DNA from: Vicinamibacterales bacterium
GTDB lineage: Bacteria > Acidobacteriota > Vicinamibacteria > Vicinamibacterales > SCN-69-37
Direction: 5' to 3'
NCBI GenBank assembly: GCA_030827135.1
Contig: JAURFE010000002.1
Span: 310,001-374,000 of the forward strand
Length of the DNA stretch: 64,000 nucleotides
In this document: positions 24,543-42,283 of the stretch, piece by piece
Layout of the letters: each line of letters starts with the position of its first letter
Numbering within the stretch: the first letter of the stretch is position 1
Notes under the pieces: generated by a model
Database searches by the model: none
Told to the model about the DNA's origin: nothing
The model's input: the letters and a program-made list of their open reading frames with translations, nothing else
Position numbers and translations under genes: made by a program

Positions 24543-24570
24543 AAAATAACGCTAAATGTTAACACGTCAA
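24543..24570 (-). promoter_or_regulatory. Candidate sigma-70-like promoter for yebC-ruvCAB-fabH
   Basis: Read on the minus strand: -35 TTGACG (24570-24565), 16-bp spacer, -10 TATTTT (24548-24543), about 42 bases before the yebC ATG. The -35 box overlaps the last codons of the upstream methyltransferase gene. Seen by eye only. Confidence 0.45.
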
Positions 24571-25343
24571 CGTTTACGGGCCAGAATCACCCAGGTGTCC
24601 GCCTCCGGATGCCAGACTTCCCCCCGATATCCGCCCAGCACGTTGTCCACCCGGAATCCAGCCCGCTCGAGCCGGGTGAGGACCTGTGCCATCGGCAACG
24701 TGCGGAACGTCAGTTGAAACTGGTGCCGCCGCACCGTGCGTCCCGTGCGGACCACGTACTGCTCGTCGAAGATGGTCAGCCCCTTGCGGCGATCCTGCCG
24801 CACCGATTCGACCAGCGTCAGCGTCGTGCCGGCCGAGAGGCGACCTTTCAACGGGATGCGACGCTCGTATTCCTCCCACGCGGACAGGTCAGGCACAAGG
24901 TCGATCGCCAGCAATCCTCCGCGCGACAGGCCGGCGGCTGCGGCGTCGAGGGTCGCGGTGACGTCCGCGTCACGGACCAGTGACTGCAGGAGGCCATAGG
25001 CCGCGATCACCGCCTTGAATCGCCGGGGGCGAAAGGGCCACGTGCGCACGTCTCCACGAACCAGCGCCGGTCGAAGGCCGGCGGGCATCCGGCGCAGGCG
25101 ACGACGGGCGCGGTCGAGCATGGGCTCGGAGCGGTCGACCCCGATGGTGCGGCCGGTATCTTCGCGGACGCGCGCCATCGGCGCGAGCAGGCGGCCGGTG
25201 CCGCAGCCGAGCTCAAGCAGATCGCCGTCGATCGACGCAGCGATCTTCCGCCAGAACGCGACGTCGCGGCGCCCAAGGGTGCGCGCGTTTTCCCAATCGT
25301 AGAAGGGCGCGTAGGCGTCCCACCCCTGCCAACCTTCAGACAT
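24567..25343 (-). CDS. Class I SAM-dependent methyltransferase, last gene of the lasso operon
   Basis: A 258-aa methyltransferase with motif I LLELGCGTGRLL, GVDRSEPMLDRARRR (acidic ribose-binding residue), DVRTWPFRPRRFKAVIA and LSRGGLLAIDLVPD. The substrate is unknown. The ATG at 25343 overlaps the ABC permease stop by eight bases, so it is co-transcribed with the lasso-type genes upstream and could act on the peptide; it could equally be an unrelated passenger. The next gene, yebC, seems to have its own promoter. Confidence 0.82.
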   Translation of the reverse strand: MSEGWQGWDAYAPFYDWENARTLGRRDVAFWRKIAASIDGDLLELGCGTGRLLAPMARVREDTGRTIGVDRSEPMLDRARRRLRRMPAGLRPALVRGDVRTWPFRPRRFKAVIAAYGLLQSLVRDADVTATLDAAAAGLSRGGLLAIDLVPDLSAWEEYERRIPLKGRLSAGTTLTLVESVRQDRRKGLTIFDEQYVVRTGRTVRRHQFQLTFRTLPMAQVLTRLERAGFRVDNVLGGYRGEVWHPEADTWVILARKR

Positions 25344-26133
25344 GTCCCAACGTTCCTTCCTCGCGCGCGTACCGGATGGCACGCGCCAACACCCACAGAC
25401 CGAGCGGCACACCAACCAGCGCCCACCCGCCCAACATCATCAGCGACGGCCACACGGCGTCGACGCCCGCGCCGTCGAGCATCGTGGCACGCAGTCCATT
25501 CAACGCGTGGGTGGAGGGGAACCACGGTGACAGCCGCGCAAGCACCGGGGGCAGACTGCTGGTCGGGTACAACACACCGGCGAGCAACATGTTGGCCGAG
25601 GCAAAGGCCCAGATGATGGGATCCCCGCGTTTGAAGACCACCGCGAACGCGGCCGCGACAAATCCGAAGCCGGCCATCGCGAGCGCGGCGCCGCCAAAGA
25701 CCAGCGCCGTGGCCATCAGGCTGCCGGGCGTCACGCCGGCCAGCGGCGCGCCGAGCAGGAACGCCACACCCATCCACACCACGAGATCCAGCGCCGCGCG
25801 AAGCATGGGGTAGAGGGACGATAGCACCACCGTCACGAGCGGTGAGGTGGGCGTCGCCATCACGGCCTTGATCACACCGACGGCCTGGACGCCGCGGACC
25901 ACCTGCGAAAAACAGATGAGCGCGGTCATCAGCGCGCCGTTTGCCGCAACGCCCACCAGCAGAAACCCCAGCGGGGTGTAGCCATCGAGGGCGCGATCCT
26001 CAAACAGTCCCGCCAGAACGCCATACACAATCAGCATCAGCACACCATCGATCGCATCGAAGGCGAACACCAGCCGGTAGCTGAGATCGATCCGCACATC
26101 TTTCCGGAGACAAGCCCACGCTTTGGCAATCAC
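25336..26133 (-). CDS. ABC-2 type transporter permease
   Basis: A 265-aa membrane protein with about six helices (VLMLIVYGVLAGLF; FLLVGVAANGALMTALICF; VVWMGVAFLLGAPLAG; TALVFGGAALAMAGFGFVAA; IIWAFASANMLLAGVLY; WALVGVPLGLWVLA). It belongs to the ABC-2 exporter class of drug and natural-product pumps and has no peptidase domain. The start overlaps the ATPase stop by four bases. With the ATPase it is the likely exporter of the lasso-type peptide. Confidence 0.88.
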   Translation of the reverse strand: MIAKAWACLRKDVRIDLSYRLVFAFDAIDGVLMLIVYGVLAGLFEDRALDGYTPLGFLLVGVAANGALMTALICFSQVVRGVQAVGVIKAVMATPTSPLVTVVLSSLYPMLRAALDLVVWMGVAFLLGAPLAGVTPGSLMATALVFGGAALAMAGFGFVAAAFAVVFKRGDPIIWAFASANMLLAGVLYPTSSLPPVLARLSPWFPSTHALNGLRATMLDGAGVDAVWPSLMMLGGWALVGVPLGLWVLARAIRYAREEGTLGHV

Positions 26134-26897
26134 GACGGGGCTCCGTCACTGGTGGCCGCGCCGTACGCCGCGGTCAACGCGCCGCGTTCGCCGCGCAGAT
26201 CGGCCGTGGCGCAATTGAGCGACACGCGGCCGCGATGCAGCACGACCACCTGATCACACAGGGTCTGCGCTTCGTCGAGGTCGTGGGTGGAAATCAGCAT
26301 CGTCGCCCCACGCTCGCGCGCCCAGCGCCGCAGCGCGGTCTGCGTCAACGCACGGGCCTGCGGATCAAGCCCCCGGGTCGGTTCATCGAGGAGCCAGAGC
26401 CGCGCGCGTGCCATCGCTGCGCGGGCGAGCCCGAGCCGCTGGCGCATGCCATCCGAATAGGTATCGACACGCCGGTCCAACGCATCCGCGATCGCCAATT
26501 CCTCCGCGGCCTCAGCACCACGTTCGCGCCACTGCGCCCGCGGGATGTCGTACAGCGCGGCAAAAAATTCGAGGTTCTGTCTGCCCGTCAGCCTGGGGAA
26601 AAATGCCGAGCCCCCCGCCGGTGCGTACGCCATCAGGCGGCGCACCGCCGACGGGCTGGACACGACGTCCTGACCGAACACCAACGCGTGGCCGCCCTGC
26701 GGGATCAGCAGCGTGGCCAGGATTTCAAGGAGGGTCGTTTTGCCGGCGCCGTTGTGGCCGAGCACGCCGCACAAAGTGCCGGCAGGCACGACAAACGAGA
26801 CGGCATCCAGCGCGACAACAGGCGGGGGACCGGTAAACCGTCGAACGCGATAACGCCGCGTCACCGCGTCTAGCGTGAGGGCCGGACCTACAAGCAC
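26130..26897 (-). CDS. ABC transporter ATP-binding protein
   Basis: A 255-aa ABC ATPase: Walker A GHNGAGKTTLLE, signature YSDGMRQRLGLARAAM, Walker B LWLLDEPTRGLDP and the H-loop STHDLDEA. It has no fused membrane or C39 peptidase domain. The start is GTG at 26897, inside the last codons of the lasso precursor gene (10-base overlap), so translation of exporter and precursor is probably coupled. Confidence 0.92.
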   Translation of the reverse strand: MLVGPALTLDAVTRRYRVRRFTGPPPVVALDAVSFVVPAGTLCGVLGHNGAGKTTLLEILATLLIPQGGHALVFGQDVVSSPSAVRRLMAYAPAGGSAFFPRLTGRQNLEFFAALYDIPRAQWRERGAEAAEELAIADALDRRVDTYSDGMRQRLGLARAAMARARLWLLDEPTRGLDPQARALTQTALRRWARERGATMLISTHDLDEAQTLCDQVVVLHRGRVSLNCATADLRGERGALTAAYGAATSDGAPS

Positions 26898-27058
26898 ATG
26901 CCGGTTTGACGCCTGGTGGTGCCCTCAGCCGAGGTGCCGCTGGTACCCTGCGTGAGCTTGCCGATGTGGCCGTACTCCAACAGGCGCGGCGCCGTCCACG
27001 GCTGACGCGCGGGCCTGGGGGTCGTTCCGTCAACCTTGGTCGAAGGATGCTCTGCCAT
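26888..27058 (-). CDS. Lasso-peptide-type RiPP precursor (leader plus 19-residue core)
   Basis: A 56-aa peptide nested between the kinase and ABC ATPase genes, overlapping them by 29 and 10 bases. The leader fits the lasso recognition consensus YxxPxLxxxGxxxxxTx exactly in spacing, with W for Y: W21, P24, L26, G30, and T36 at the penultimate leader position. Cleavage after Q37 would release core GTSGTSAEGTTRRQTGMCL: Gly at position 1 and Glu at 8, predicting an 8-residue macrolactam and an 11-residue loop/tail with two Arg and one Cys. An in-frame TAG four codons upstream fixes ATG 27058 as the start. No strong ribosome-binding site is seen, consistent with coupling to the kinase gene. The ring and cleavage site are inferred. 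Confidence 0.82.
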   Translation of the reverse strand: MAEHPSTKVDGTTPRPARQPWTAPRLLEYGHIGKLTQGTSGTSAEGTTRRQTGMCL

Positions 27059-28025
27059 GCTTCGATACTATGCCCGGTTCGGCGGCTGGCCGCAACGCCG
27101 ACCCGCGCAGCACCCGTTCGGCGACATCCAGCGCCCGCCGGTCGGCGCACGGCTGGTCGATGCGGGCCACCGACACGCCCGCCGCCAGATCCGCGACGAG
27201 ATGAAATAACCGCACGGCGTCCGAGCGGTCACGTACGTCGAGCCTGAAGACCTGCGAAAACAGCTCGACCGCCGCCGGCCGCCGCGGCTGGGTGTCGGAG
27301 GCCAGCAGGAGGATGCGCGTCAGGGGACGGGCACCATCGGCGAACCGCCACCCGCCGGTGTGGGGCACCACGCGCCGCTTTTCGGAATAGTGCGCGACGA
27401 CGGCGGCGTCGGCCGGGTCCCACCCGACATGATCCATGGCGGACTCCCACAAGCGAACGGCCGGATAACTGGGAATCGCGCGCCACCCGCCGGACTCCGG
27501 GTACACCACGAGGCTGTCGTCGGCCATCACCTCGGCGCCAAGCCGCGCGCAGGCCGCCACCAGGGTGGACTTGCCCGCTCCCGTGGGTCCGACAAATGCC
27601 ACCACCGCGCCATCGGTCGCCACGGCGCCCGCGTGCAACACCAATGGGCGGAGACGGCTCAGCACCAGCGGCAGCACCTGATTCAGCAGGAGGTGCCGGG
27701 CGGTGACCATCGGCGCGCGGGGCCGCACCTGGGCGTCGATGCGGCGCCCGTCGCGGGCGATGACAAACGTCCCCGTCTCCGGGAACTCCACGACATATCC
27801 TTCGGCTGTCTCACCGAAGCGCGCCCACACGTCATCGTCGCCCCACTGGTGAAACCACTCGGCACCAACGGACGCCGCCCGCGGTGTCCAGTCGACTCGA
27901 ACGATGTCCGCGCGTGCCTCGGCGGGGGCGCGCGCCGGCACCAGCTCCGGCAGGGGACGTGACGACAGGAGATGGAGGTCCGCGAAGGTGTACGCGTGTT
28001 CGCGGGAGTTACCGGTCGTCGGCAC
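27030..28025 (-). CDS. HPr-kinase-like protein of the lasso operon
   Basis: A protein related to HprK-type Ser kinases. From GTG 28025 it has 331 aa: an N-terminal alpha/beta region, then H131 in LVLHAGAV, Walker A GPTGAGKST (146-154) and the acidic pair DD (169-170) in MADDSLVV. HprK-like kinases occur in some lasso clusters (paeninodin type), where they phosphorylate the peptide, and also in polysaccharide clusters. The longer open frame upstream (to 28289) is a shadow of the methyltransferase gene. It overlaps the methyltransferase end by 17 bases and the precursor start by 29. Confidence 0.82.
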   Translation of the reverse strand: MPTTGNSREHAYTFADLHLLSSRPLPELVPARAPAEARADIVRVDWTPRAASVGAEWFHQWGDDDVWARFGETAEGYVVEFPETGTFVIARDGRRIDAQVRPRAPMVTARHLLLNQVLPLVLSRLRPLVLHAGAVATDGAVVAFVGPTGAGKSTLVAACARLGAEVMADDSLVVYPESGGWRAIPSYPAVRLWESAMDHVGWDPADAAVVAHYSEKRRVVPHTGGWRFADGARPLTRILLLASDTQPRRPAAVELFSQVFRLDVRDRSDAVRLFHLVADLAAGVSVARIDQPCADRRALDVAERVLRGSALRPAAEPGIVSKHGRASFDQG

Positions 28026-29157
28026 GGCCGTACCTGGTGACCACTTCGGCGACGAAAATCGCGGCGGCGTCAGGCGACACGAAGAGATCCGGGTGGCGCA
28101 CCGCCGTTTCCTGTTCGATCTCCGCCAGGGTGTGCATGCCGTCGCACAACTGGAGAATCGTCGCGCGCGCATCCGCCCACGGCGACAGTCGCGGCCGTCG
28201 CTGGGGATTGGTCTGCTCAAGCATCTCAGGCAGGATGAGCATGCCGGCCAATGTAGACTGCCGCGAACGGCGCAGCACCTGGTCGCCACGGCGCACCGTC
28301 AGTTGCCACGCCACGATTGAATCGACCGGGCGCACCAGCACCGTGCAGGCAACCGTGTCCCCCGGCTCAACGGCCACCGGGTGGTCGAGCGGGAGGAAGG
28401 CCTGACGGCGCCCGATCTGGTCTGGGGCGCCTGGCGCGTTGGTCATCGTCACGCCCTCAGCCATGTCGGCGACGAACCAGCCGCCGAGGCCCGACAACAG
28501 GCCGGCGCGCGTCACCGTGAATGTCGCGGTGCCGCGACAGGACTCGCTGGCCGGGTCGCCGAAGCGCATCGACAACAGCGGCGTCCCCTCGGCCAGGCAC
28601 TGCGAGGGATTCAGGTGCGCCGGGTACCCCGTATTGACCGCGCCCTGTCGGACGATTGAGACGTCAAACCCGGCAGGCTTCGTATTCCAGAACTCGACCC
28701 ACGCCGTCATCTCCGGCGCCTCGATGGGTGCCATCCAGGTGGCGACGCTTCGAGGAAGAAGCCGGCCGCCCGGCTTGAGCATGCGGCGCGAGGCGTCGGC
28801 GAAGAACTCAACGACGCCCGCTTCAAACCCGAGCCGCCCCATCTGATCGGACACGATCACATCGGCGCGTTCGGGAAGGTCCGCCCGCGTCGAGTACGCG
28901 TGCACGTGCACAATGCGATCCGCCAGTCCATTGGCGGCGGCAATCTGGCGCGCGATGCCGATCATGCCGCCGTCGTCAATCGCATAGACGCGTGAGGCCC
29001 CGGCGCGGCACGCGAACAGCCCGAGAATCCCGGTGCCACACCCGAGGTCGACGACCACATCGCCCGGCGTCACCACACGCGCGATCGCCTGTTCAAACGC
29101 GGCGAGGCGATGAGGATCCGCGAGGTATTGTCGGTGTTCGTCAAACTGCAGGGACAT
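28009..29157 (-). CDS. PRMT-like methyltransferase fused to a C-terminal PqqD-type domain
   Basis: A 382-aa two-domain protein. The N-terminal part is a class I methyltransferase of protein-arginine type: VVVDLGCGTGILGLFACRAG (motif I, residues 35-54), VYAIDD and SDQMGRLGFE (104-113), which aligns with the double-E loop of PRMTs, the first Glu being Asp; a beta-sandwich-like region follows. Residues about 318-382 (LSPWADARATILQLCDGMHTLAEIEQE...) form a PqqD-like winged-helix fold, which as an RRE could dock a precursor peptide. Start ATG 29157 overlaps the cyclase end by 17 bases. Arginine in the precursor core (positions 12-13) is a plausible target, by inference. Confidence 0.8.
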   Translation of the reverse strand: MSLQFDEHRQYLADPHRLAAFEQAIARVVTPGDVVVDLGCGTGILGLFACRAGASRVYAIDDGGMIGIARQIAAANGLADRIVHVHAYSTRADLPERADVIVSDQMGRLGFEAGVVEFFADASRRMLKPGGRLLPRSVATWMAPIEAPEMTAWVEFWNTKPAGFDVSIVRQGAVNTGYPAHLNPSQCLAEGTPLLSMRFGDPASESCRGTATFTVTRAGLLSGLGGWFVADMAEGVTMTNAPGAPDQIGRRQAFLPLDHPVAVEPGDTVACTVLVRPVDSIVAWQLTVRRGDQVLRRSRQSTLAGMLILPEMLEQTNPQRRPRLSPWADARATILQLCDGMHTLAEIEQETAVRHPDLFVSPDAAAIFVAEVVTRYGRADDR

Positions 29158-31003
29158 CGCTGTGTCGAGATGATAGCGCACGCACCGAGGCCTCTGCGGC
29201 GAGGATCTGCCAGAGCATCTGCACCTCGGGATCGTGGCGGTCATCACCCGCGGCGATCCGCTGCCGGATGCGTTGCCATGCCGCGCGCGCATAGGCAAGA
29301 TCGACCCAGCCGCGTGCCACCACCTCCATCGGGCGGCTGAGCGTGCCGTCCGGATCAGCCGCGCACAGGCCATCACGCGTAAGGCGCGCGAAGTCGGCTT
29401 TGTCCACACGCGTCGCGACGGCCGGCGGCAGGTGGGCGTCGAAGGCGCGACGCAGCAGATACCGCGGCTGGCGATGCCGGAAGCGGAGATCATCGGGCAA
29501 CGTGATGAGAAATTCCACCAGACGCCGATCCAGGAACGGCTGGCGCATGTCGAGTCCGGCATTCCGGCCTGCGCGCAGCAACGCGTCGTGGAGATGCGAG
29601 GAGTCGCCGGACCAGAGATGCACCAGCGACGCCCGGACGACGGCGGACCGCCGCTTCGGCACGCGACAGAACCCTCCTTTCATGCGATCGGGCAGGCCCG
29701 TCCGCGTGATGAAGCCGGCCTGCAACCACGGCACCCGCAACGCGGGCCTGCTGGCGCGCACGGCGCGCGTCACCATCTCGGGCACAAACGGCGCGACCGC
29801 CGCGCGCAGCGCGCCGATCCGGCTGATGTCCCACATGGCGCGGTAGTCGCGGAGGTAGAACGCCGCAGACAGGACCCGGCCCTGGCGCAACAAATCGGCC
29901 GCCCGGAATACGCTCCCCGACAGGTAATCATCGCCGCCAACGCCGGTCAACATGACGCGATGCCCCTGCGTGTACGCGCGCCGCAGCAGCGGCGCAAACA
30001 GGACCTCGCCGGTGGCCAGTTCCGGCAGATCGCCGTGGTCGAGCGCCGGCTGAAACACGGCCGGACCTGTGGCTCCGGGCGCCTGATACCGGACCGGTGT
30101 CCCGCGACACCGATGGCGGGCCACCACGGCGTCAATGAACGGCGACTCGTCGGCCTCCGGGCGATCCGGAAACGTCAGCGAGTACGTGGCCGGCGGCAAG
30201 ACGCCGAGGGCATGCGCCACACCGACGATCGACGACGAATCGAGGCCGCCACTGAGCTGGAAGGCCGCCGGGGAGTCGGCTGGCAGGCGTGCGGCCACCG
30301 CCGTCGTGAACAATGCCCGCAATTGATCGACGGCATCGCCTTCCGCAATCGGCCGCTCGTCGTCGGGGTCGAAGGTCCAGTAGGGCGTGACACGCGCCAC
30401 ACCACGGACCAGTTCCAGCTGGGACCCCTGCGGCACGCGGAAGGCACCGACGATCGGCGTTTCGGTGAGTGACACCGGCGCGTCCGCGAGGTACTCGGCA
30501 AAGTACCCCTCGTTCAGCGTGGCCGGCAGCCACCCTGTGGCACACAGTCCGGCGAGCGTCGAGGCCCAGCAGAACACGTCCGGTGTCGCGGCGTAGTAGA
30601 GGGGGCGCATCCCCATCGCGTCGCGCGCCAGGACCAATCGACGGTCGGACGGAAACCAGGCCGCGAAGGCAAAGTCTCCCAGACAGGCGCGAATACCATC
30701 CGCGCCCCGCGCGACGGCCGCCGCCAGGAGCGTGGCCCGCGCACTGCCGGCGCTCACCCCCATCTGTGCCGCAAGTTCGGTTGGATGATCGAGACGCCCC
30801 GACCACGTCAGCCGGACGGGTCCGGCATCCGCGCCAACAGCAAGATCATCCGGGACCAGGCCCAGGACGGCCGGTCCGGATTCGATGATGCGGGGGGGAT
30901 GTCGCGGGACGTTGACCGACGGCTGCAGCGCCGCCACCATGCGACGAACGACCGCCGTGTCGTGGCGGCCGTCACCCGACTGCCGCACCAGCCCAGCGAT
31001 CAC
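29141..31003 (-). CDS. Asparagine-synthetase-like lasso cyclase
   Basis: A 620-aa member of the asparagine synthetase family. The protein starts MIAGLVRQ, so the Cys2 nucleophile of glutamine-hydrolysing enzymes is missing, although the N-terminal Ntn-like fold remains (GDFAFAAW; LARDAMGMRPLYY). The synthetase domain has the PP-loop SGGLDSSS (251-258) and LTGVGGDDYLSGS. In lasso biosynthesis the homologous C protein adenylates the ring Asp/Glu and closes the macrolactam. It lies two bases after the PqqD gene, with the precursor in the same operon. A role in small-molecule amide formation is the alternative. Confidence 0.85.
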   Translation of the reverse strand: MIAGLVRQSGDGRHDTAVVRRMVAALQPSVNVPRHPPRIIESGPAVLGLVPDDLAVGADAGPVRLTWSGRLDHPTELAAQMGVSAGSARATLLAAAVARGADGIRACLGDFAFAAWFPSDRRLVLARDAMGMRPLYYAATPDVFCWASTLAGLCATGWLPATLNEGYFAEYLADAPVSLTETPIVGAFRVPQGSQLELVRGVARVTPYWTFDPDDERPIAEGDAVDQLRALFTTAVAARLPADSPAAFQLSGGLDSSSIVGVAHALGVLPPATYSLTFPDRPEADESPFIDAVVARHRCRGTPVRYQAPGATGPAVFQPALDHGDLPELATGEVLFAPLLRRAYTQGHRVMLTGVGGDDYLSGSVFRAADLLRQGRVLSAAFYLRDYRAMWDISRIGALRAAVAPFVPEMVTRAVRASRPALRVPWLQAGFITRTGLPDRMKGGFCRVPKRRSAVVRASLVHLWSGDSSHLHDALLRAGRNAGLDMRQPFLDRRLVEFLITLPDDLRFRHRQPRYLLRRAFDAHLPPAVATRVDKADFARLTRDGLCAADPDGTLSRPMEVVARGWVDLAYARAAWQRIRQRIAAGDDRHDPEVQMLWQILAAEASVRALSSRHSDVPAV

Positions 31004-31005
31004 AA

Positions 31006-31293
31006 CTACGACGTCACAATCACGGCAAGGCCGGTGTCGATCAACTGCGTGAACAGCGCGGCAAGGTCCCGGTCAATCTGATCTCCAGGGGCGTCGTACT
31101 CCGTGACGAGACTGTCCCGCAGCGTCCCCAGGCTGGTGCCCTCCGCCGGCACGAGCGCCCAGACCCGGGATCCAACAGGGTCCAGGCTGTAATACAGTCC
31201 CGACGTCACGTTCAGCAGGACCACCTCGCCGTCAACGAGGCGCCAGACCACGTCCGGGTGGGGTGCTACGCGGGTCTCTGATTCCACGGGCAT
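31006..31293 (-). CDS. PqqD-family peptide chaperone (RiPP recognition element)
   Basis: A 95-aa PqqD-type protein: VAPHPDVVWRLVDGEVVLLNVTSGLYYSLDPVGSRVWAL, then a helical part (DSLVTEYDAPGDQIDRDLAALFTQLIDTGLA). Such stand-alone RREs (lasso B1/E proteins) bind the leader and deliver it to the peptidase and cyclase. It is the first gene of the operon, 54 bases downstream of a near-consensus promoter -10 box. Confidence 0.92.
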   Translation of the reverse strand: MPVESETRVAPHPDVVWRLVDGEVVLLNVTSGLYYSLDPVGSRVWALVPAEGTSLGTLRDSLVTEYDAPGDQIDRDLAALFTQLIDTGLAVIVTS

Positions 31294-32247: not shown

Positions 32248-34539
32248 ATGTTTGGTGATCGCAACAACGTCCTCATCGAGCCGCCGGCCCCGGCCGCGCC
32301 GATCTCAGGTTTGCCCGGCGCGCCTGGGCATCCCGAGGGCGAGACCCATCTGCTCGATCGCCTGAGCGTCATCTATCGCTACCGCAAAGTGGTGGTGACC
32401 GTCATCGTGGTGGTCCTCATCGCCGGCGTCGTCCAGACGATGACGACAACCCCGGAATATCGCGCGTCGGCGCGTGTACAAATCGACGACGAACGCAGTC
32501 TGCCGGGCCTGTCGCTGGGTAACGAGCAGATGTGGGTCGAGACCAGCACACTGATGTCGACGCAGGTGCAGGCACTGCGCAGCAAGGACCTGATCCGCAC
32601 GATTGTGCCGCAGCTCAACCTGACCGCCGTGGCGGAGTTCAACGGGACGGGCACCGGTCCCACGGGCCTGAGCGGCGCGTTGTCCTCGCTGCGCGCGCGG
32701 ATCACCAATCCGATCAGCAGCTTCCTCTCCGGCCAGGAGACGGGCGCGACAGCGTCCGCAGAGCCGACCATCCCCGCCGATCCGGAGCGCCTGCTTGAGG
32801 ACCGCGTCGTTGACATTTTTCTCAGCCGGATGTCCACAACGCCGATCACCGACAGCCGGGCCATTCGCATTGACTTCGTCTCGCAGGACCCGGCCCTGGC
32901 CGCAGCGGCCGCCAATGCGCTGGCGAAGGCCTACATCGAGCAGAACCTGAAACGCCGCCGGGGCAACCTGGACGCGATCGTGGCCGACCTCGAAAAACAG
33001 GTCAAGGACGGCGACCAGCGCATCAAGAGCGCCGAAGCCAACATGGTCGCGTTTCGCGACAACAACAATGCGGCCGCGCTGGCGGACCCGTCGGTGCTCG
33101 CCACGCAGGAACTGGAACGGCAGGCCGAGCTGGCCCGGGCCGTGGAGTCGGCCCGGGTGGCCCGTGAGCACTACACGCGCCTGCAGGCCGTCCCGTACGA
33201 CGACCAGAGAATCGATACATTTCCCCAGATGAATGCGGACCCCGATGTCCGCCGGTGGAAATCGGAACTCAGCGCGCGGCAAAGCGCGTTGTCGCGCCTG
33301 ACGTTTGGTGAGGACCACCCGGTGCGCCTTGATGCCGTGCGAGGCATCGCGGAGGCCCGCGAAGGGCTGAAAGTCGCGCGTGACACCGTGGTCGACCGGC
33401 TGCGCCTCGCCGCCGAGAGTGCCGACAGCGATGTCACAGTGCGTCGCCAAAACCTTGCGACCATCCGAGCGACGCGCGAACAGCTCGGCACCAAGGGGAT
33501 CGACTACGACAGCCTCCTTCGGTTGCGGGATTCCGAGCGGGCGCTGATCACCACCCTGCAGGACCGGCTGGCCAACTTCAACATCGAGGCCAACGCCATC
33601 CGCAACAACGTGTGGCTGCAGGACAGCGCGGTGGCGCCCGCACGGCCGTTCAAGCCGGACGTGTCGCGCAACCTGCTGCTCTCCCTGTTTGTCGGATTTG
33701 CACTCGCCGGGGCGCTGGCATTCGGTCTCGACTATCTCGATGACACGATCAAGACGCCCGAAGACATCACGCGCAAACTGCGGATTCCGTTCCTCGGCCT
33801 CGTGCCGTCTGTACGCGGCGACAGACCGCACGTACTCTCCGGCCCGGTCCCGCACGACTTCGGCGAAGCCTACCGCGCGCTGCGCACCTCGCTCGTATTC
33901 ACCAGCGGCGGCGAATCCACGCGCATTATCACGTGTACGAGCGCACAACCGCTGGAGGGCAAGACGACGACCGCCTGCAACCTGGCGATGGTGCTCGCGT
34001 TCGGCGGGTCACGCGTCCTTCTGATCGACGCCGACATGCGGCGTCCAGGCGTCCACAAGACGCTCAAGATCAACAACACCGTGGGATTGTCCCATCTGCT
34101 CGTCGGTCAGGCCCGTGTGCGTGAGGCAATCCAGCGCACGAGTGATCCGAATTTCTGCGTGATGACGGCCGGGCGTACGCCGCCCAACCCGTCGGAACTG
34201 CTCTCCTCAGAGCGCATGAAACAGTTGATCGCGAACCTCAAGCAGGGCCCGTTTGACTGGGTCGTGATCGACACGCCGCCGGTGCTCGCCGTGACGGATG
34301 CCGTCATTCTGACGCCACTGGTGGACGGCGTGGCGTTTGTGCTCGGTGCGGAAATGACGAGGCGCCGCCTCGCAGAGCGCGCCGTGCAGATGTTGATGGT
34401 CAGCCGTCCCCGCGTCGTGGGCGCCGTGCTGAATCGCGTGAATTTTGACCGCAACAAGTACTACTATTCGCGGTATTACGGCTACCAATACAAGAGTTAC
34501 TACGGCAGCGGCACCTCGGGCGCCACAGAGAAGGCCTGA
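32248..34539 (+). CDS. Polysaccharide co-polymerase/tyrosine autokinase (Wzz plus BY-kinase)
   Basis: A 763-aa fused Wzc-like protein controlling chain length and export. The N-terminal Wzz part has a membrane helix (VVVTVIVVVLIAGVVQTM) and a long periplasmic coiled-coil region; a second membrane helix (LLLSLFVGFALAGALAFGL) follows the Pro-rich VAPARPFKPD. The cytoplasmic BY-kinase has Walker A SAQPLEGKTTTACN, Walker A' VLLIDADMRRPG and Walker B WVVIDTPPVLAVTDA. The C-terminal tyrosine cluster (KYYYSRYYGYQYKSYYG) is the autophosphorylation site. Confidence 0.94.
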   Translation: MFGDRNNVLIEPPAPAAPISGLPGAPGHPEGETHLLDRLSVIYRYRKVVVTVIVVVLIAGVVQTMTTTPEYRASARVQIDDERSLPGLSLGNEQMWVETSTLMSTQVQALRSKDLIRTIVPQLNLTAVAEFNGTGTGPTGLSGALSSLRARITNPISSFLSGQETGATASAEPTIPADPERLLEDRVVDIFLSRMSTTPITDSRAIRIDFVSQDPALAAAAANALAKAYIEQNLKRRRGNLDAIVADLEKQVKDGDQRIKSAEANMVAFRDNNNAAALADPSVLATQELERQAELARAVESARVAREHYTRLQAVPYDDQRIDTFPQMNADPDVRRWKSELSARQSALSRLTFGEDHPVRLDAVRGIAEAREGLKVARDTVVDRLRLAAESADSDVTVRRQNLATIRATREQLGTKGIDYDSLLRLRDSERALITTLQDRLANFNIEANAIRNNVWLQDSAVAPARPFKPDVSRNLLLSLFVGFALAGALAFGLDYLDDTIKTPEDITRKLRIPFLGLVPSVRGDRPHVLSGPVPHDFGEAYRALRTSLVFTSGGESTRIITCTSAQPLEGKTTTACNLAMVLAFGGSRVLLIDADMRRPGVHKTLKINNTVGLSHLLVGQARVREAIQRTSDPNFCVMTAGRTPPNPSELLSSERMKQLIANLKQGPFDWVVIDTPPVLAVTDAVILTPLVDGVAFVLGAEMTRRRLAERAVQMLMVSRPRVVGAVLNRVNFDRNKYYYSRYYGYQYKSYYGSGTSGATEKA

Positions 34540-34552
34540 GTCCAGCGGTACC

Positions 34553-35914
34553 ATGCTGACCATGACGGCAGCGTTGAACCTGCTGCTGGCGTGGTCGGTG
34601 TTTGCCTTCGGCGCCGTCTACGACTGGGCGTTCGCGCCGGCCGCGCTGCTGGCGCTCACTGGCGCTGCCTGGTCCCTCCGATCCCCTCTGCGACAACGTG
34701 CCTGGCTCGACCTGTGGCTGTGCCTGCTGGCCGGGGTCGCGATCCTGCAGTTGATTCCGCTGCCCGAGGCCGTCCGCGCCATCCTCTCACCCGGTCAGGC
34801 CGGCTATGTCACGCGCGTCAGTCTGGCGCCCCCGGCGCCCGGCTCGTGGCTGCCGCTGTCCCTGCACCCAGGTGCATGGCTGTTCGGCGCCGGCGCCCTC
34901 ATCGCTGGCATCGCCACATTCCTGTGGACCCGCGACACTCTGGAGTCGCGCGGCGTGCGGCGCGTCGCGCGGGCCATCGCGTGGATGGCCCTGATTGTGT
35001 CGGCGTTCGCGCTGGTCCAGCCCGTCGTCTTCCCCACCGGCGGAATTTACGGCTTCTGGGATCCCCTCGCCAGCGGCACCCGCCCCACCGGGCCCATTGT
35101 GAGCCGCCCCCACTTCGCGTCGTGGGTGATTCTGGCGTGGCCGCTGACGGTCGGCTATTTGTTTTCGCATGCACGCTCCCACTGGCGGAGCCGCCGCGTC
35201 TCGCGCGGTGCCGCCATTCTCGGGGACACACGGACGTGGTGGCTGCTCCTGTCGATTGCGCTGATGGCCGCTGCGGTGCTGGTCACGCAATCGCGGTCCG
35301 GCGTCATCGGGTTGGGGGTGGCGGGCCTCGTGCTGATGCTGGAGGCCTGGAAGCGCACCGGCCTGGCCGGACGCGCCGGCCTGGTGGGGTTCCTCGCCCT
35401 GGTGACGGTGGCAGCGTCCCTGTGGGCGACCCCTGACGCGGTCTTATACCGCTTCGAACACGCCTGGTCCGGCGTCGACGGCGGTCGCCCGCAGATCTGG
35501 GATCAGGTCTGGGTGCTCGTACGCGATTTCCCGATCGCGGGGATCGGACTCGGCGCCTTTGACGTCGTGATGCCGGCCTATCAGACAAGCGCCTTCGTGG
35601 CGCTGCTCAATCACGCGCACAACCAGTATCTGCATCTGCTCGCGGAGGGCGGTCTCCTGCTTGCCGTGCCGGCCGTCGGCGCCGTTGTGACGTTCCTCGG
35701 CACGGCGTGGCGGCGCAGCCGCGAGGATCGGACCCCGCTGGTGCACGTCCGGCACGGCGCGTTCGCCGGCCTGGCCGGTCTGGCCGTACAATCCCTCTTC
35801 GAAACGCCCATGCTCACACCGGCCGTGATGTTTCTCGCGGCGGTCAGTGCGGCTTTGGTGGTCCGCGGCGCCGACCCGGTGAGGGCGGACGTCAGCGGGG
35901 AGTCGGACGGCTGA
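34553..35914 (+). CDS. O-antigen ligase/polymerase family membrane protein
   Basis: A 453-aa protein with about ten to twelve membrane helices and the Wzy_C region ending in NHAHNQYLHLLAEGG, typical of WaaL/Wzy-type enzymes that join or polymerise lipid-linked glycans in the periplasm. The start is ATG 34553 after the BY-kinase stop; the frame extends upstream through that gene's Tyr cluster. Its stop overlaps the next gene start (TGATG). A second protein of this family is at 47382-48689; one may be the polymerase and the other a ligase. Confidence 0.85.
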   Translation: MLTMTAALNLLLAWSVFAFGAVYDWAFAPAALLALTGAAWSLRSPLRQRAWLDLWLCLLAGVAILQLIPLPEAVRAILSPGQAGYVTRVSLAPPAPGSWLPLSLHPGAWLFGAGALIAGIATFLWTRDTLESRGVRRVARAIAWMALIVSAFALVQPVVFPTGGIYGFWDPLASGTRPTGPIVSRPHFASWVILAWPLTVGYLFSHARSHWRSRRVSRGAAILGDTRTWWLLLSIALMAAAVLVTQSRSGVIGLGVAGLVLMLEAWKRTGLAGRAGLVGFLALVTVAASLWATPDAVLYRFEHAWSGVDGGRPQIWDQVWVLVRDFPIAGIGLGAFDVVMPAYQTSAFVALLNHAHNQYLHLLAEGGLLLAVPAVGAVVTFLGTAWRRSREDRTPLVHVRHGAFAGLAGLAVQSLFETPMLTPAVMFLAAVSAALVVRGADPVRADVSGESDG

Positions 35915-36627
35915 TGTCTCTGCGCGTCGGTGTGGATCTTGACGGTGTCGTCGCCAACTTTCGTTCCGCGTTTGAATCCGCGGCGTCAGAAGCCGGCGTG
36001 TCCCTGCCTGTCGCGGGTCTTGAGGCGTCGACCAACGACCCCCTGTCCTCCCGAGACATCCGAAAGATCTGGGACTACGTCAAACGGACGCCCAACTGGT
36101 GGGTGCGGCTCTCGCCGTATGAACCCGCACAGATCGTCCGGCTGTACGAAACCGCGAGGCGGCTCCGGTGGGAAGTGGTGTTTGTGACCCGGAGACCCGT
36201 CACGATCGGCGACCCGGTGCAGTTCCAGTCGCAGTGGTGGCTCGAACAGCAGGGGTTCTTCTACCCGGCCGTGCTCACCGTACCGGGCTCACGGGGAGAA
36301 CTCGCCAACGCCCTGCGGCTCGACGTGCTCATCGATGACCAGATTCACAACTGTGTGGATGTCATCAGCGCATCCACGGCCAAGGCCGTGCTGCTGCTGC
36401 GCGACCGCACCGACTCGTCCGTGGAGGATCACGCCGTCAGTCGCGGCATCGGCGTCGTGGGCTCGCTCGAAGAGGCGCTGGACGTGCTCGACCATCTGCA
36501 TTCGGTGCTGCGCGAGCGCCGCGGGCGCCTCCAGCGACTCGCCGACTGGTTTGTCGTCAAACCCAGGACGGACGACCGCCTGCCTATCCGTCCCGATCCA
36601 CATCGCGTGACGCTGCGGAATGACTGA
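35914..36627 (+). CDS. HAD-like hydrolase (5'-nucleotidase/phosphatase type)
   Basis: A 237-aa HAD-superfamily protein. The motif I Asp pair is in RVGVDLDGVVANF, motif II is around VVFVTRRP, and motif III/IV Asp residues are in LDVLIDDQIHNCVD. The substrate is unknown; by position it may dephosphorylate a sugar or nucleotide intermediate of the polysaccharide pathway. Start ATG 35914 overlaps the previous stop. Its last 44 bases overlap the end of the convergent nucleotidyltransferase gene. Confidence 0.78.
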   Translation: MSLRVGVDLDGVVANFRSAFESAASEAGVSLPVAGLEASTNDPLSSRDIRKIWDYVKRTPNWWVRLSPYEPAQIVRLYETARRLRWEVVFVTRRPVTIGDPVQFQSQWWLEQQGFFYPAVLTVPGSRGELANALRLDVLIDDQIHNCVDVISASTAKAVLLLRDRTDSSVEDHAVSRGIGVVGSLEEALDVLDHLHSVLRERRGRLQRLADWFVVKPRTDDRLPIRPDPHRVTLRND

Positions 36628-37744
36628 CCGCGCCTGACCGGCGATCCCGCCACCACCGCCACAGCCACTGCGCACCTCCGCGCACCAGCCGATGTCCGTA
36701 CAACGCCGGCAGCAGGACCCGCCGCCGCGTCCGGTACTGCGCGAACATGAACTCGCGCGGCGGCAACACATGTTCCCGCACCAGCCTGACCCGCGCACGC
36801 CACCCCGGCAGCGCGCGCAGATCATCAACGGCGTCCTGCAGTCGGCCCCGTTCAGGGCGCAACCAGCGCCGCGACCGATCGTTCGCGCCGTCGGCGGCGA
36901 TGCCCGCAATACAGGTCGCCTCAAGGATCGGCGCGGTGATCGCCTCCAGGGCCGCGCACGCGCGGGCGTGCGTCAGCGCCTGCGCGATCAGGGCGGACAC
37001 CCCGGCGTCGGCAACCCGGGCGCGGAAGGCCGCAGCGTCGGCGCTCGTCAGCCGCCGCGCCACCAGCGCCACATCCAGCGCCCACTTGAGGACCGGGTCC
37101 TTCGAGTGATGCGCGCGCGGATGCAGGCACGCGATTAGGAGGCCATCGTCGTCACTCACGCGCCACACCCCGGGTCCCGCAAACGGCGCGAGGACACTGC
37201 GGGTCATGACGTCGGACGTTGGAAGCATGGCTGACAGCCACACGCGATTGGAGATCCGCCAGTGCAGATCAATCGCCATCGTCGTGCCGGCGACACCGGT
37301 GCGTTCGAAGACCTCCTGTCCGTTCACCAGATCCCCGGGAATGCGACCCGCCGGGGTGTACCCGGCGGCGGCCAGCGCCGCAAAAGCACGCGCCCGATCG
37401 GCCACGTCGATGAGCACGTCCAGGTCGAGGCACGGACGACACCACGGCTCTGGGTAGTCGGTATACGCCCATGCTCCGCCTTTGAAGAGCACGGGGCGCA
37501 CACCAGCAGCCACCAGTGCCGCGCAGGCGCGCACCATCTCCGCCTGTTGCACCGCCGTGGTCATGGCGGCGCGCCGACGGTCATCGGCCAGCGCCGCCAC
37601 GTCGGGACGCAGCCAGGCCATGTAGGGCGCGAGCCCATCGTGGCGCAACGCGTCGATCACAGCGTCCGCGCCGTACCGGCTGAAGGCGGAATCCAGTTGT
37701 GGGGGATGGCGAAGTACCGCGGCCAGATCGGCCAGGGACACCAC
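36584..37744 (-). CDS. Nucleotidyltransferase family protein (NTP_transf_5-like)
   Basis: A 386-aa protein of the uncharacterised nucleotidyltransferase group: VRPVLFKGGAWAYTDYPEPWCRPCLDLDVLID holds the KGG loop and the DxD metal motif, followed by AIDLHWRISN and a helical C-terminal half. Members recur next to HprK-like kinases, PqqD proteins and asparagine synthetases in polysaccharide and lasso clusters, though their substrate is unknown. It is the last gene of the long minus-strand exopolysaccharide run. Confidence 0.78.
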   Translation of the reverse strand: MVSLADLAAVLRHPPQLDSAFSRYGADAVIDALRHDGLAPYMAWLRPDVAALADDRRRAAMTTAVQQAEMVRACAALVAAGVRPVLFKGGAWAYTDYPEPWCRPCLDLDVLIDVADRARAFAALAAAGYTPAGRIPGDLVNGQEVFERTGVAGTTMAIDLHWRISNRVWLSAMLPTSDVMTRSVLAPFAGPGVWRVSDDDGLLIACLHPRAHHSKDPVLKWALDVALVARRLTSADAAAFRARVADAGVSALIAQALTHARACAALEAITAPILEATCIAGIAADGANDRSRRWLRPERGRLQDAVDDLRALPGWRARVRLVREHVLPPREFMFAQYRTRRRVLLPALYGHRLVRGGAQWLWRWWRDRRSGAVSHSAASRDVDRDG

Positions 37745-37747
37745 GGG

Positions 37748-38932
37748 TCAACTCCAGAGGGAGCTGATGACGGCGCGCCGGAAGGCGGGATGGCGCAGGA
37801 GCGCCAGCGCGGCGCGACGATGCCAGTTGAAGTCTGCGTGTTGCTTGAGCAGCGGCACGATGCCGTCCACTCTGGCTACTTCCACCAGTGTGCGAATGCC
37901 GCGATCACTGATACGGGTCGCGAGCGCGCGGAAGGCGAGTCCTGCGCGAATGTCGGGCCCGATGGACGCGCGCCACCGGTCTTCGTACACCCGAAGATCG
38001 CGCGCACCCAACGCGTTGCGGGAGAGCGCGTCGGCAAGCACGTCGGCGGCGAGGCGGCCGCTCAGCAGGCTGTAGTAGATGCCGCCACCAGTGGTCGGCT
38101 TCACCATGCCGGCGGCGTCGCCGACGGCGACAACGCGATCGCCGACGGTCCTGCGCACCGGCCCCAGCGGCAACATCTTCAACCGGGCGCCGGGAATGGC
38201 CGCCGGATCCACACCGGCCTCAGCGGCCACACCGGACGCAAACGCGCGGAACCGCCGTGGCGCTTCGGTATCGCAGAACAGGCCGAGCCGCACGTGCGGC
38301 ACGTCACCGCGATCAAACGGGACCGCCCAGGCGAACCCCCCGGGCGCCACCGACCGGCCGAGCCGGACGTCGATCCGCGGCAAGCGCGCAAAGGGCATTT
38401 CGACCTGCGCGGTCTGGACGAACGCGCGCGGCACCCCGAGGCCCAGTTCGCGATTAAACCGGTAGTTTGCGCCACACGCCAACACGCACACCCGTGCGCG
38501 CACGGGGAGGTCATCGCCGCGTACCTGCACGTGCACCCCATCGGCGTCGACCGTCAGTCCGTTCACGCGGGCATCGGTCCGGATCTCCGCGCCGTGCGCC
38601 AGCGCCCGCTCGGCCAGGCGGCCGTCAAACGAGGCGCGGTCGACGACCGCCGCGATGATGCGGTCGGTGTCGACCACCACCGGTTCACCGTCCTCATGGC
38701 GGAACGCCGCCGCCGTGGACAGGGCAAGAATCGTATCTTTCGGAAGGTCGAGTTCGGCAAACGCATCAAAACCCAGGACCCCGGTGCAATGCACGGGCCG
38801 GCCCACCACGGCATGTTCTTCGAGCACCACGACACGGTGTCCGCGCACGGCGAGGTCGGCGGCTGCCATGAGCCCGCCGGGGCCGGCGCCAATGACGACG
38901 GCATCGTAATGCGATGAAGAAAATCCGGTCAC
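37748..38932 (-). CDS. Geranylgeranyl-reductase-family FAD oxidoreductase
   Basis: A 394-aa flavoprotein with N-terminal Rossmann motif VVIGAGPGGLMAAADLAVRGH, CTGVLG, a second FAD motif VGDRVVAVGDAAGMVKPTTGGGIYYSLLSG and a geranylgeranyl reductase-like C-terminus. Such enzymes saturate isoprenoid chains. GTG 38932 overlaps the sugar transferase stop (GTGA). Its place directly after the initiating sugar transferase suggests action on a polyprenyl carrier, or it may be unrelated to the polymer. Confidence 0.82.
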   Translation of the reverse strand: MTGFSSSHYDAVVIGAGPGGLMAAADLAVRGHRVVVLEEHAVVGRPVHCTGVLGFDAFAELDLPKDTILALSTAAAFRHEDGEPVVVDTDRIIAAVVDRASFDGRLAERALAHGAEIRTDARVNGLTVDADGVHVQVRGDDLPVRARVCVLACGANYRFNRELGLGVPRAFVQTAQVEMPFARLPRIDVRLGRSVAPGGFAWAVPFDRGDVPHVRLGLFCDTEAPRRFRAFASGVAAEAGVDPAAIPGARLKMLPLGPVRRTVGDRVVAVGDAAGMVKPTTGGGIYYSLLSGRLAADVLADALSRNALGARDLRVYEDRWRASIGPDIRAGLAFRALATRISDRGIRTLVEVARVDGIVPLLKQHADFNWHRRAALALLRHPAFRRAVISSLWS

Positions 38933-39597
38933 AGGGTTCGCTGTTGTTGTCCGCGGTGCTCCCACCGGCCGGACACGGTGACCCACAACGATTGCAGAAT
39001 CAGTCCGAGGTCCACCCGCAGGGATTGGCGCCGGATGTAGAGCCTATCGTACCGGAATTTCTGACGCCTCGGTAGATTCCTGGAGGCGTGGAGCTGAGCG
39101 ACACCCGTCAGCCCCGGACGCACGAGCGACCGGACCTCGAATCCGGGCACGTCCTCGAGGCGGACATGCCGTCCATCTCCGACCGCATCAATTTCGCCGG
39201 GGCGGAGGGCCCGCGGCCCCACCACGCTCATGTCGCCTCTGAGAATATGCCAGAGTTGCGGCACCTCATCCATCGCGGTGGCACGCAGGACCCGGCCGAC
39301 CCGGGTCACCCGGGCGTCTCCGGCCACCGCCTGGCGGGCCCCATCGCGCTCCGCATGCACCACCATCGATCGGAACTTGGTGACCTGGAACTCGCGTCCG
39401 CCCATGCCTGATCGCGCCTGGTGAAAGAATACGGGACCGCGGTCGTCGATCCAGATAAGCACAGGCACCAGCACCCAGAGCGGCGCGCTCACCACCAGTG
39501 ACACCGTCGCAAAGCCTATGTCGACCGCGCGTTTTGCGATCGACGCGCGCACTCGCGCCGCGGCGTCAGTGATCGGCTCCAGGGTCACCTGCGCCAT
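38929..39597 (-). CDS. Initiating sugar (phosphoglycosyl) transferase
   Basis: A bacterial sugar transferase of 222 aa that moves a sugar-1-phosphate onto undecaprenyl phosphate, the first step of repeat-unit assembly. It has one N-terminal hydrophobic segment (IGFATVSLVVSAPLWVLVPVLIWI), VTKFRSMVV, and the catalytic Asp-Glu dyad in ATAMDEVPQLWHILRGDMSVVGPR; this is the short monotopic form. ATG 39597 is used; the open frame upstream is non-family. Confidence 0.93.
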   Translation of the reverse strand: MAQVTLEPITDAAARVRASIAKRAVDIGFATVSLVVSAPLWVLVPVLIWIDDRGPVFFHQARSGMGGREFQVTKFRSMVVHAERDGARQAVAGDARVTRVGRVLRATAMDEVPQLWHILRGDMSVVGPRALRPGEIDAVGDGRHVRLEDVPGFEVRSLVRPGLTGVAQLHASRNLPRRQKFRYDRLYIRRQSLRVDLGLILQSLWVTVSGRWEHRGQQQRTL

Positions 39598-40445
39598 CCC
39601 GCCATCATCCACAACCACCCGGCGCGGCCCCAGATCACACTCCACACGATCGCGTCCTTCGGGAAGAAGGACCGGAAGTGCTTGCGGTAGTACCGCCACA
39701 TGCTGCGGTGACGCGCGAGGATCATCGGCCGATTGACCTGCCGACTGCTGCCGCCAATCTCGTGCTCCATGATGATGCCTGGGTGAAAGTAGACCTTCCA
39801 CGCTGCGTCCCACGCGCGTCTGCAGAAATCGACGTCCTCGACGTACATGAAGAACTGCTCATCCAGCCCGTTGAGCGCGTCGCTCACCGCGCGACGATGC
39901 AACAGACACGCGCCCGAGACCCAGTCGACGGGTTCTGCCACGGCATACGACGCCTCCGCGCGCAGATACCGGCGCGACCACGGATTGCGGGGGAACCACC
40001 GTGTCAACACCGAATACCGATGCCCCAACGCCGCGCCATACGACGGGAACGCGCGTGCAGATCGCTGGACGGTGCCGCCCGGATCGAGGATCTTTCCCCC
40101 CACAATCCCGACGTCCGGGTGTTCATCCATCCAGGCGACCACCGCGGGCAGGCTGCCGCCGGTGAGACGACCGTCGGGGTTCATCCAGAGCACGTAGCGA
40201 CCGGTAGTGGCGCGGAGTCCGGCATTGATCCCGGCGCCAAACCCGACGTTCCGGTCCAACGCCACGACCGTGACATCGGGGTGACGACGCACCACCTCGA
40301 CGGTGCGATCCCCGGACGCATTGTCCACAACCACGATATCCGCGCGCATGCCGGCCAGCGCCGTGCGGACAGACGTCAGGCACTCGTCGATATCACGCTC
40401 CGACCGATAGGTCACGATCACCACAGACAGGTCGGGTGCACTCAC
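39585..40445 (-). CDS. Glycosyltransferase family 2
   Basis: A 286-aa GT-A glycosyltransferase: LSVVIVTYRSERDIDECL, VVDNASGDRTVEV, LDRNVGFGAGINAGL, and the DxD-like motif LWMNPDG; CRRAWDAAWKVYFHPG near the end fits rhamnosyltransferase-like members. The GTG 40445 start overlaps the asnB stop (GTGA). Its C-terminus has a possible membrane-associated helix. Confidence 0.9.
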   Translation of the reverse strand: MSAPDLSVVIVTYRSERDIDECLTSVRTALAGMRADIVVVDNASGDRTVEVVRRHPDVTVVALDRNVGFGAGINAGLRATTGRYVLWMNPDGRLTGGSLPAVVAWMDEHPDVGIVGGKILDPGGTVQRSARAFPSYGAALGHRYSVLTRWFPRNPWSRRYLRAEASYAVAEPVDWVSGACLLHRRAVSDALNGLDEQFFMYVEDVDFCRRAWDAAWKVYFHPGIIMEHEIGGSSRQVNRPMILARHRSMWRYYRKHFRSFFPKDAIVWSVIWGRAGWLWMMAGWRR

Positions 40446-42283
40446 GACGGTGTCTCCATCCGTTCCAGCACATACACCGCCCACAGGCGCGACCAGTGCA
40501 GCCGTCCCGCGAGAAACGCCGCCACATCACCCGCATACCGGGGCTGCCGCAACCGGGTTGCGACATCCCGCCACGCCGTCGGTCGCGGCGAGGACAGCGC
40601 TATCCGCAGCCACACGTCAATCGGCAGCACAAATCCCTGCTTGGGCCGATGACGGGCCGCGGGCGTGGTCCACTCCGGCCACGCCTCACACAGGGCCGCC
40701 TTCCAACTCGACCGCGATCCGCGCGGCCACCGGCCGGCGGCAGCGACCGCCTCGACCACATGATGATCCACAAACGGTGTGCGGAGTTCCAGCGCGCGGC
40801 ACATCGTGACCGCATCGGCATCGGGCAGCAACTGCCGTTGCAGGAAACGACGCCACTCAAGGTCCCGGATGATATCGAACGGATCAGCCGGGTTCCCTCC
40901 GGATGACGGGACCGGCGGCACCGCACGGCCCGTCAGACGGGCAACATCCATCCGCGACCAGAGGCCCCGGTACGCCCACCACGTCTCGTCCAGCGTGGAC
41001 GGCGCCTCGACCGCGATCGTGCCGAGTTTAGTCATGCGCGACGACGGCCAGCGGGCCAGCACGGGACCGGCAAACCGCGCCGCGCTGCCCCAGCGCGTCA
41101 GGGATGCGAACAGCGTGGGCACCTCCGTGAAGGACGGATACCCACCGAGCAGTTCGTCGCCGCCCACCCCAGACAACGCCACCTGCACACCGGCCATCCG
41201 GGCCGCGCGAGCCACCAGGAAGGTATTGAAGCCATCGACCGTCGGCTCGGCGAGCGAGGCCACGAATTCGTCGAGCACCTGATCCAGGTCGAGATCCTCG
41301 AGGGCCACCTCGGTGTGCGTCGTGCCAAAGCGCTCGGCGGCCGCGCGCGCCGACGCGCTCTCATCAAGGCGCGACGCCGCCATCGTGACCGTCAGCGACT
41401 GCAACGGTCCGGACGTCTGCGCGCGTGCAGCGGCCGCGATGATCGAGGAATCAAGGCCGCCGCTGAGGAACACCGCGACGGGCACGTCACTGACGAGATG
41501 CGCGCCGACGCTCTCGGCAATCGCCGCGCGGATGCGTGGCGCCACCTCGGCGACGGGCCGCTCCGGACGGGGCTGGCGCCACACGTGATCGATCGACCAG
41601 TACGTCCGGGCCGCGTCACCACCACGCCGGGCAGTCACGCACGTGCCAGGCGCAACCACCGACACGCCCTCCCAGAAACTCTCGCCGCCCGGGACCGACC
41701 CGGTCGCCAGAAACGCCGCCCGCTGTCGCGGCGACGGTCGCAACGTCCAGAGACCCGACGCTTCAAGCGCCTGCGGTGTTGACGCAAACAGCAGCAGGTC
41801 CGGCTGCGGCCGCACAAAAACAAGCGGTTTGATCCCGAACCGGTCGCGCCCGAGCGTCAGCGCCCCTCGTCCGGTGTCAAACCACGCGAACGCGAACATG
41901 CCCCGCACCTGCGGAAGCGCCTCGACGCCGTCGTGCGCAAGCAGTTCGAGCAGCACCTCCGTGTCGGAGTGCGATCGCAGCACCACGCCACGATCGGCGA
42001 TGCGCGGCTGCAGTTCGAGAAAATTGTAGATCTCGCCGTTGTAGGTGATCCAGTGACGACGATCCGCGGACACCATCGGCTGCCGACCGGCGGACGACCG
42101 ATCAAGAATGGCCAGCCGGCGATGCGCCAGATACGCCACCGCCCCGTCCGTGCCGCACACGATCTCGCGCCCGGCACCGTCCGGGCCTCGACGGGCTATC
42201 GCCGCGTCCATACGCTCAAGCACGGCGGTCATCGTGTCGCGATCGCGCGCGCCCCAGTCGACGAGTCCGGCGATGCCGCACAT
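40442..42283 (-). CDS. asnB: Glutamine-hydrolysing asparagine synthetase-like amidotransferase
   Basis: A 613-aa enzyme with the intact nucleophile Cys2 (MCGIAGLVDWG), glutaminase motifs ITYNGEIYNFLEL and RGMFAFAWFDT, PP-loop VFLSGGLDSSIIAA and GVGGDELLGGYPSF. It should hydrolyse glutamine and amidate a carboxyl group. Among glycosyltransferases it may amidate a uronic acid residue of the polymer, as reported for some exopolysaccharide amidotransferases; ordinary asparagine synthesis is the alternative. The start overlaps the next upstream gene (TGATG). Confidence 0.88.
   Translation of the reverse strand: MCGIAGLVDWGARDRDTMTAVLERMDAAIARRGPDGAGREIVCGTDGAVAYLAHRRLAILDRSSAGRQPMVSADRRHWITYNGEIYNFLELQPRIADRGVVLRSHSDTEVLLELLAHDGVEALPQVRGMFAFAWFDTGRGALTLGRDRFGIKPLVFVRPQPDLLLFASTPQALEASGLWTLRPSPRQRAAFLATGSVPGGESFWEGVSVVAPGTCVTARRGGDAARTYWSIDHVWRQPRPERPVAEVAPRIRAAIAESVGAHLVSDVPVAVFLSGGLDSSIIAAAARAQTSGPLQSLTVTMAASRLDESASARAAAERFGTTHTEVALEDLDLDQVLDEFVASLAEPTVDGFNTFLVARAARMAGVQVALSGVGGDELLGGYPSFTEVPTLFASLTRWGSAARFAGPVLARWPSSRMTKLGTIAVEAPSTLDETWWAYRGLWSRMDVARLTGRAVPPVPSSGGNPADPFDIIRDLEWRRFLQRQLLPDADAVTMCRALELRTPFVDHHVVEAVAAAGRWPRGSRSSWKAALCEAWPEWTTPAARHRPKQGFVLPIDVWLRIALSSPRPTAWRDVATRLRQPRYAGDVAAFLAGRLHWSRLWAVYVLERMETPS

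Follow-up and report, generated by a model that had tools for sequence, protein, structure and literature searches.

A 64,000-nucleotide window of the genome of a soil-type Vicinamibacterales bacterium (contig JAURFE010000002.1) carries an operon that is a lasso-type cluster for a ribosomally synthesized and post-translationally modified peptide (RiPP). It encodes a leader-binding protein (B1), a macrolactam cyclase (C), a methyltransferase with the fold of the protein arginine methyltransferases (PRMTs), an HprK-like kinase, a precursor peptide (A) and an ATP-binding cassette (ABC) exporter, while a lasso leader peptidase, B2, is encoded on another contig. We are highly confident that this is a lasso peptide system, and we consider it likely that its product is a tailored lasso peptide, with the remote B2, the kinase and the PRMT-fold enzyme acting in the steps proposed below; the system is probably a lasso-type variant with components working in trans. 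Positions refer to the window, the genome of which is labelled G000; other genomes are labelled G and loci L.

A conserved lasso precursor

The precursor gene is a 56-codon frame (26888–27058, minus strand) with the residues that the original prediction had assigned to it: Trp21, Pro24, Leu26, Gly30 and Thr36 in a leader that runs to Gln37, then the core GTSGTSAEGTTRRQTGMCL with Gly1, Ser3, Glu8 and a C-terminal Cys-Leu. Likewise as predicted, an in-frame TAG lies four codons 5′ of the start, and the frame overlaps the kinase gene by 29 nucleotides and the ABC ATPase gene by 10. Counted from the core, the leader residues are W(−17), P(−14), L(−12) and T(−2), a [YW]xxPxL motif followed by Thr at −2, and the combined leader and core pattern (aromatic-xx-P-x-L … G … LT-x-[GASCT] … acid) has a single match in the window and none in any of 60 shuffled windows. 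A lasso leader model, the kind of check proposed earlier, does match the precursor (NF033521), but its 16.1 bits fall under the cut-off of 19; the precursor of locus L043 scores above it. This shortfall and the overlap with both neighbours are what could be expected had the frame arisen by chance between the kinase and ABC genes, a reading that retains almost no probability and is refuted by the conservation of the precursor in related loci, in which it occurs at either of two places with respect to the kinase gene. The precursor is 50–59% identical to those of G002 and G011, and a sister precursor matches it with an E value of 1e-13.

We compared 39 precursors from related loci; the sequences are related to one another, and the counts are therefore not independent. 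Most loci share a leader of the form [YW]xxPxL..YG..xKLTx, followed by a core of 14–25 residues. An acid stands at core position 7–9 in 37 of the 39 (position 8 in 28, position 9 in 9) and is kept while the remaining core residues vary; when each core was shuffled in 20,000 trials, the number with an acid at 7–9 averaged 6.8 and never exceeded 17. The retention of precursor, leader and acid at position 8 or 9 in homologous loci argues strongly for the predicted lasso precursor with an eight-residue ring. The expectation that leader, Gly1 and Glu8 would be conserved together held for the leader and the acid but not for the glycine, which is residue 1 in 20 precursors and is replaced by Ser, Thr, Ala, Lys or His in the other 19. 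Cys-Leu forms the C terminus of 29 of the 39, and many tails are Met-rich, foremost those of Nitrospira (L043, L049, L052 and L060), which end in Cys-Leu (for example, GGGGSVPDGMSGMAASMMMMCL); for the Nitrospira tails, metal binding is one idea. The precursor gene precedes the PRMT gene in most loci and follows the HprK gene in the clade of the window. One Acidobacteria cluster contains three tandem precursors with near-identical S1…E8 cores (L064:7340–7994).

Core biosynthetic genes

The order of transcription is B1, C, PRMT-fold methyltransferase, kinase, A, the exporter pair and a further S-adenosylmethionine (SAM) methyltransferase, all on the minus strand. B1 (31006–31293), a stand-alone PqqD-type RiPP recognition element predicted to bind the leader, matches PF05402 at 51 bits (cut-off 23.4), and C (29141–31003), a predicted asparagine-synthetase-like lasso macrolactam cyclase without Cys2, contains the ATP motif SGGLDSS and matches PF00733 above its cut-off, at 141 bits. 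For both proteins the lasso models are the best NCBIfam matches, although at scores below their cut-offs (41 bits against 80 for B1 with the lasso PqqD chaperone model NF033536; 224 against 525 for C with the lasso cyclase model NF033535). The exporter consists of a DrrA-like ATPase (26130–26897; PF00005, 99 bits) and a DrrB-like ABC-2 type permease (25336–26133; PF01061, 50 bits). Profile searches and fold models confirmed the co-directional neighbours that had been named for the precursor. The operon frames are all intact and overlap tightly, and the single promoter-like site reported for the operon, TTGACG-17-TACAAT upstream of B1 (31375–31347, minus strand), is a consensus match only, scoring 10 of 12; the claim that every gene is joined to the next by an overlap fails at one junction, with B1 and C lying 2 nucleotides apart. 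A second PqqD-like protein is encoded elsewhere in the genome (L040:6993–7280; G000:C11:1217031–1217201).

A B2 peptidase on another contig

The original description of the cluster as peptidase-less holds for the operon, in which no B2 gene is present, but not for the genome. A single protein in the whole genome matches the lasso peptidase family above cut-off, a 142-residue protein on contig 11 (NCBIfam lasso_biosyn_B2, 88.7 bits; cut-off 33) with the Cys, His and Asp triad in place in the alignment, and this match rules out the absence of B2 from the genome. It is encoded between a PBP1a gene, whose end its own gene overlaps, and prfB (both named from sequence), an arrangement repeated in the sister species G002 and G003. 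Both G000 and G002 thus combine a B2-less operon with an intact stand-alone B2. In G004, the B2 at this site is damaged, having lost its C-terminal part including the triad Asp, and between it and prfB lies a PRMT remnant (L029:9127–9603), left over from a lasso-type cluster at this second site; in G001 and G006, PBP1a adjoins prfB, and neither B2 nor the operon is present. This co-occurrence of the operon with a stand-alone B2 rests on few genomes, 14 in the family.

In a tree, the four stand-alone B2s group in a single clade (support 100/99), placed beside the B2s of PRMT-type clusters with moderate support (88/73). Because B2 lies within the operon at most PRMT-type loci, we regard it as part of the system. 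We infer that the stand-alone B2 originated in a PRMT-type cluster and that the operon now relies on it; its action in trans appears likely. No second lasso cluster that could own the remote B2 was found in the genome. The sole other cyclase match there is an asparagine-synthetase relative in a polysaccharide-type block of the window (41147–42283), probably an XrtA-type amidotransferase, judging by its location and the pattern of its matches.

Tailoring enzymes

The PRMT-fold enzyme (28009–29157, minus strand) has a PRMT fold with a SAM site, as seen in its profile match to PRMT6 (2e-57), an AlphaFold2 (AF2) model with a pLDDT of 93.6 and Foldseek matches of that model to PRMT6 and PRMT2 (E value 1e-28). 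In the canonical PRMT catalytic loop, two Glu residues (the double-E) grip the arginine. The loop here is of the type ADQIGxFGFEAG, reading SDQMGRLGFE in the window: the first Glu is Asp in nearly the whole clade, the second is kept in most members although not in G011, and the window enzyme does not have the arginine-gripping double-E loop. Because 25 of the 39 cores have no Arg, and 15 neither Arg nor Lys, arginine is not the general acceptor, and arginine methylation as the role of the enzyme across the family is ruled out; in the window core, which contains RR, arginine may be the acceptor. A search of open-access literature turned up no account of a PRMT in a lasso cluster.

The C-terminal part of this enzyme had been read as a fused PqqD domain, an assignment that neither profile nor fold evidence upholds: there is no Pfam match, the hhalign probability against B1 profiles is 0.9%, and the domain is all-helical in the AF2 model, without the winged β-hairpin. 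By eye, its helical sequence LxLCDGxRxLxxIE resembles the second half of PqqD.

The kinase (27030–28025, minus strand) aligns with a P-loop (GPTGAGKS), a DD motif and His131, and its AF2 model (pLDDT 88.8) has the HPr kinase/PEPCK fold, with matches to PEPCK and HPr kinase; TIGR04352 matches at 33 bits, below its cut-off of 200. Every core checked has at least one Ser or Thr in the ring region, and the cores of the window, G002 and G011 all have Ser3. In another lasso system, the core Ser3 of the precursor is phosphorylated by BsfK, a distant HprK-like enzyme of the same type, which B1 assists (PMC10368454).

Related loci and known systems

Relatives were gathered from sister genomes and by searching 84,980 species genomes for matches to the PRMT protein, and were found in Acidobacteriota, Nitrospira, Rokubacteria, Burkholderiales, Binatota and other metagenome-assembled genomes. 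The usual gene order at PRMT-type loci is B1-B2-C-A-PRMT-HprK, from which the clade of the window (G000, G002 and G011) departs in having the precursor behind HprK and B2 gone from the operon. Parts of the pathway lie apart elsewhere too, in an independent case: in two Nitrospira genomes, A-PRMT-HprK form a module that lacks cyclase, B1 and B2 (L052 and L060), and B1-B2-C form another on a different contig, where no recognizable precursor was found (L136 and L137; G060:C53 and G061:C2). The cyclase of this B1-B2-C module is 70% identical to the clustered cyclase of a third Nitrospira.

Among characterized systems, the Bradymonas sediminis bsf cluster (BsfA/B1/B2/C/K) shares with the window the split B1 and B2, a YxxPxL-type leader at −17 to −12, a ring acid at position 8 and an HprK-like kinase together with a core Ser3, on which the bsf kinase acts; it differs in having Ile rather than Thr at −2, and the window adds the PRMT-fold enzyme and has its B2 on another contig (PMC10368454). 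The kinase-tailored paeninodin and pseudomycoidin clusters likewise combine A, B1, B2 and C with an HPr-kinase-like enzyme, which phosphorylates a C-terminal Ser (PMC9266682); the window tail ends in Cys-Leu, and the phosphorylation site must therefore differ. SAM methyltransferases also occur in the StspM (lassomycin-like) and PIMT-type methylated lasso clusters, but StspM O-methylates the C-terminal carboxyl and PIMT is an isoaspartyl enzyme (PMC9266682), whereas that of the window has a PRMT fold with an altered catalytic loop. A leader peptidase encoded away from its cluster is known from lanthipeptides (PMC8960859), which represent another RiPP class and another peptidase, the case here being a dedicated lasso B2.

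Genomic neighbourhood

The SAM methyltransferase that ends the co-directional run (24567–25343, minus strand) is probably outside the lasso pathway. It adjoins yebC in all seven relatives checked, and because five of these have no lasso operon at the site, it is not evidence for lasso tailoring; its earlier inclusion in the operon was not borne out, and as a tailoring gene it is unneeded. The block comprising polysaccharide genes, lasso operon, methyltransferase, yebC, ruvC and ruvA is shared by the window and G011, which belongs to another genus, and cluster relatives occupy the same yebC site in G045, G015, G035 and L044. ABC permease remnants persist in the cluster-less sisters G003 and G004, the operon site of the latter keeping only a permease piece. 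From this common placement, the operon is probably old at the yebC site and has been lost repeatedly.

The polysaccharide-type block beside the operon (32248–46000) includes a Wzz-like/tyrosine kinase protein (32248–34539) and the asparagine-synthetase relative mentioned above; its part nearest the operon also adjoins the operon in G011.

Proposed pathway and alternatives

We propose that B1 would bind the leader through W(−17)xxPxL and that the kinase would phosphorylate a core Ser or Thr, probably in the ring, with Ser3 the best candidate. The PRMT-fold enzyme would methylate a residue or terminus other than a conserved Arg. The stand-alone B2, a predicted cysteine peptidase encoded between PBP1a and prfB, would cut after T(−2)Q(−1), whereupon C would activate Glu8 and close a Gly1–Glu8 macrolactam around the tail …TTRRQTGMCL, and the ABC pair would export the presumably threaded product, for which the unmodified core minus water has a calculated mass of 1894.86 Da.

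Several observations weigh against this proposal. Thr, Lys or His as residue 1, as in some relatives, is unusual for lasso peptides, and the G045 precursor (L021:9196–9405) has a core, TCGITTKATGNMLRVCL, without any Asp or Glu, though B2, C, the PRMT and the kinase are all present there; its close relative L044 has the core TGGITTKDNGNMFRVCL, with Asp8. The main counter-example is G003, which has an intact-looking stand-alone B2 and no detected cyclase. G011 has the operon and no B2 was found in it, its prfB locus being missing from the assembly, and the contig that carries the G002 operon is truncated on either side, where a B2 gene belonging to that operon may lie just beyond the assembled sequence. 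In the window genome, the NCBIfam lasso models other than that for B2 all score below their cut-offs.

Some of these points would suit a lasso cluster in the course of being lost, in which the operon has shed its B2, a second, unrelated cluster has left the remote B2 behind and peptide production has ceased. Sister species that have lost the operon or keep mere remnants of it, the damaged B2 and PRMT remnant at the PBP1a–prfB site of G004 and the B2 without cyclase in G003 all fit such decay, which we nevertheless think unlikely: the operon frames remain intact with tight overlaps, G011, from a different genus, retains the operon at the same site, genomes with an intact operon also have an intact triad in the remote B2, and between G000 and G002 the non-synonymous divergence of the remote B2 (dN) is about one-third of the synonymous (dS; 0.41 versus 1.31, NG86, with dS near saturation). 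Still less probable, in our judgement, is an unthreaded product, for which C would join residue 1 to the acid, or activate a different carboxylate, and so form a simple branched peptide or some other cyclic one, with the Cys-Leu tail as its active part. The range of first residues, the one acid-free core and a Cys-Leu end nearly as conserved as the acid could be accommodated in this way; the acid at position 7–9 in almost all cores and the lasso-type leader, B1, B2 and C throughout speak instead for the tailored lasso peptide proposed here.

Implications

More broadly, and with confidence a little short of even, we suggest that these peptides form a lasso family widespread among uncultivated bacteria, with Cys-Leu as the typical end, frequently preceded by a Met-rich tail, and modified by a repurposed, non-arginine PRMT, in which the pathway genes can be split, with B2 (Acidobacteriota) or B1-B2-C (Nitrospira) acting in trans. 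Genome mining easily discards clusters that look incomplete; here, the missing enzyme turned up on a different contig, and relatives split the same pathway differently, which suggests searching lasso clusters for unlinked parts. The PRMT-fold enzyme, with its altered loop, is a candidate for a new peptide tailoring reaction in phyla that are hard to culture.

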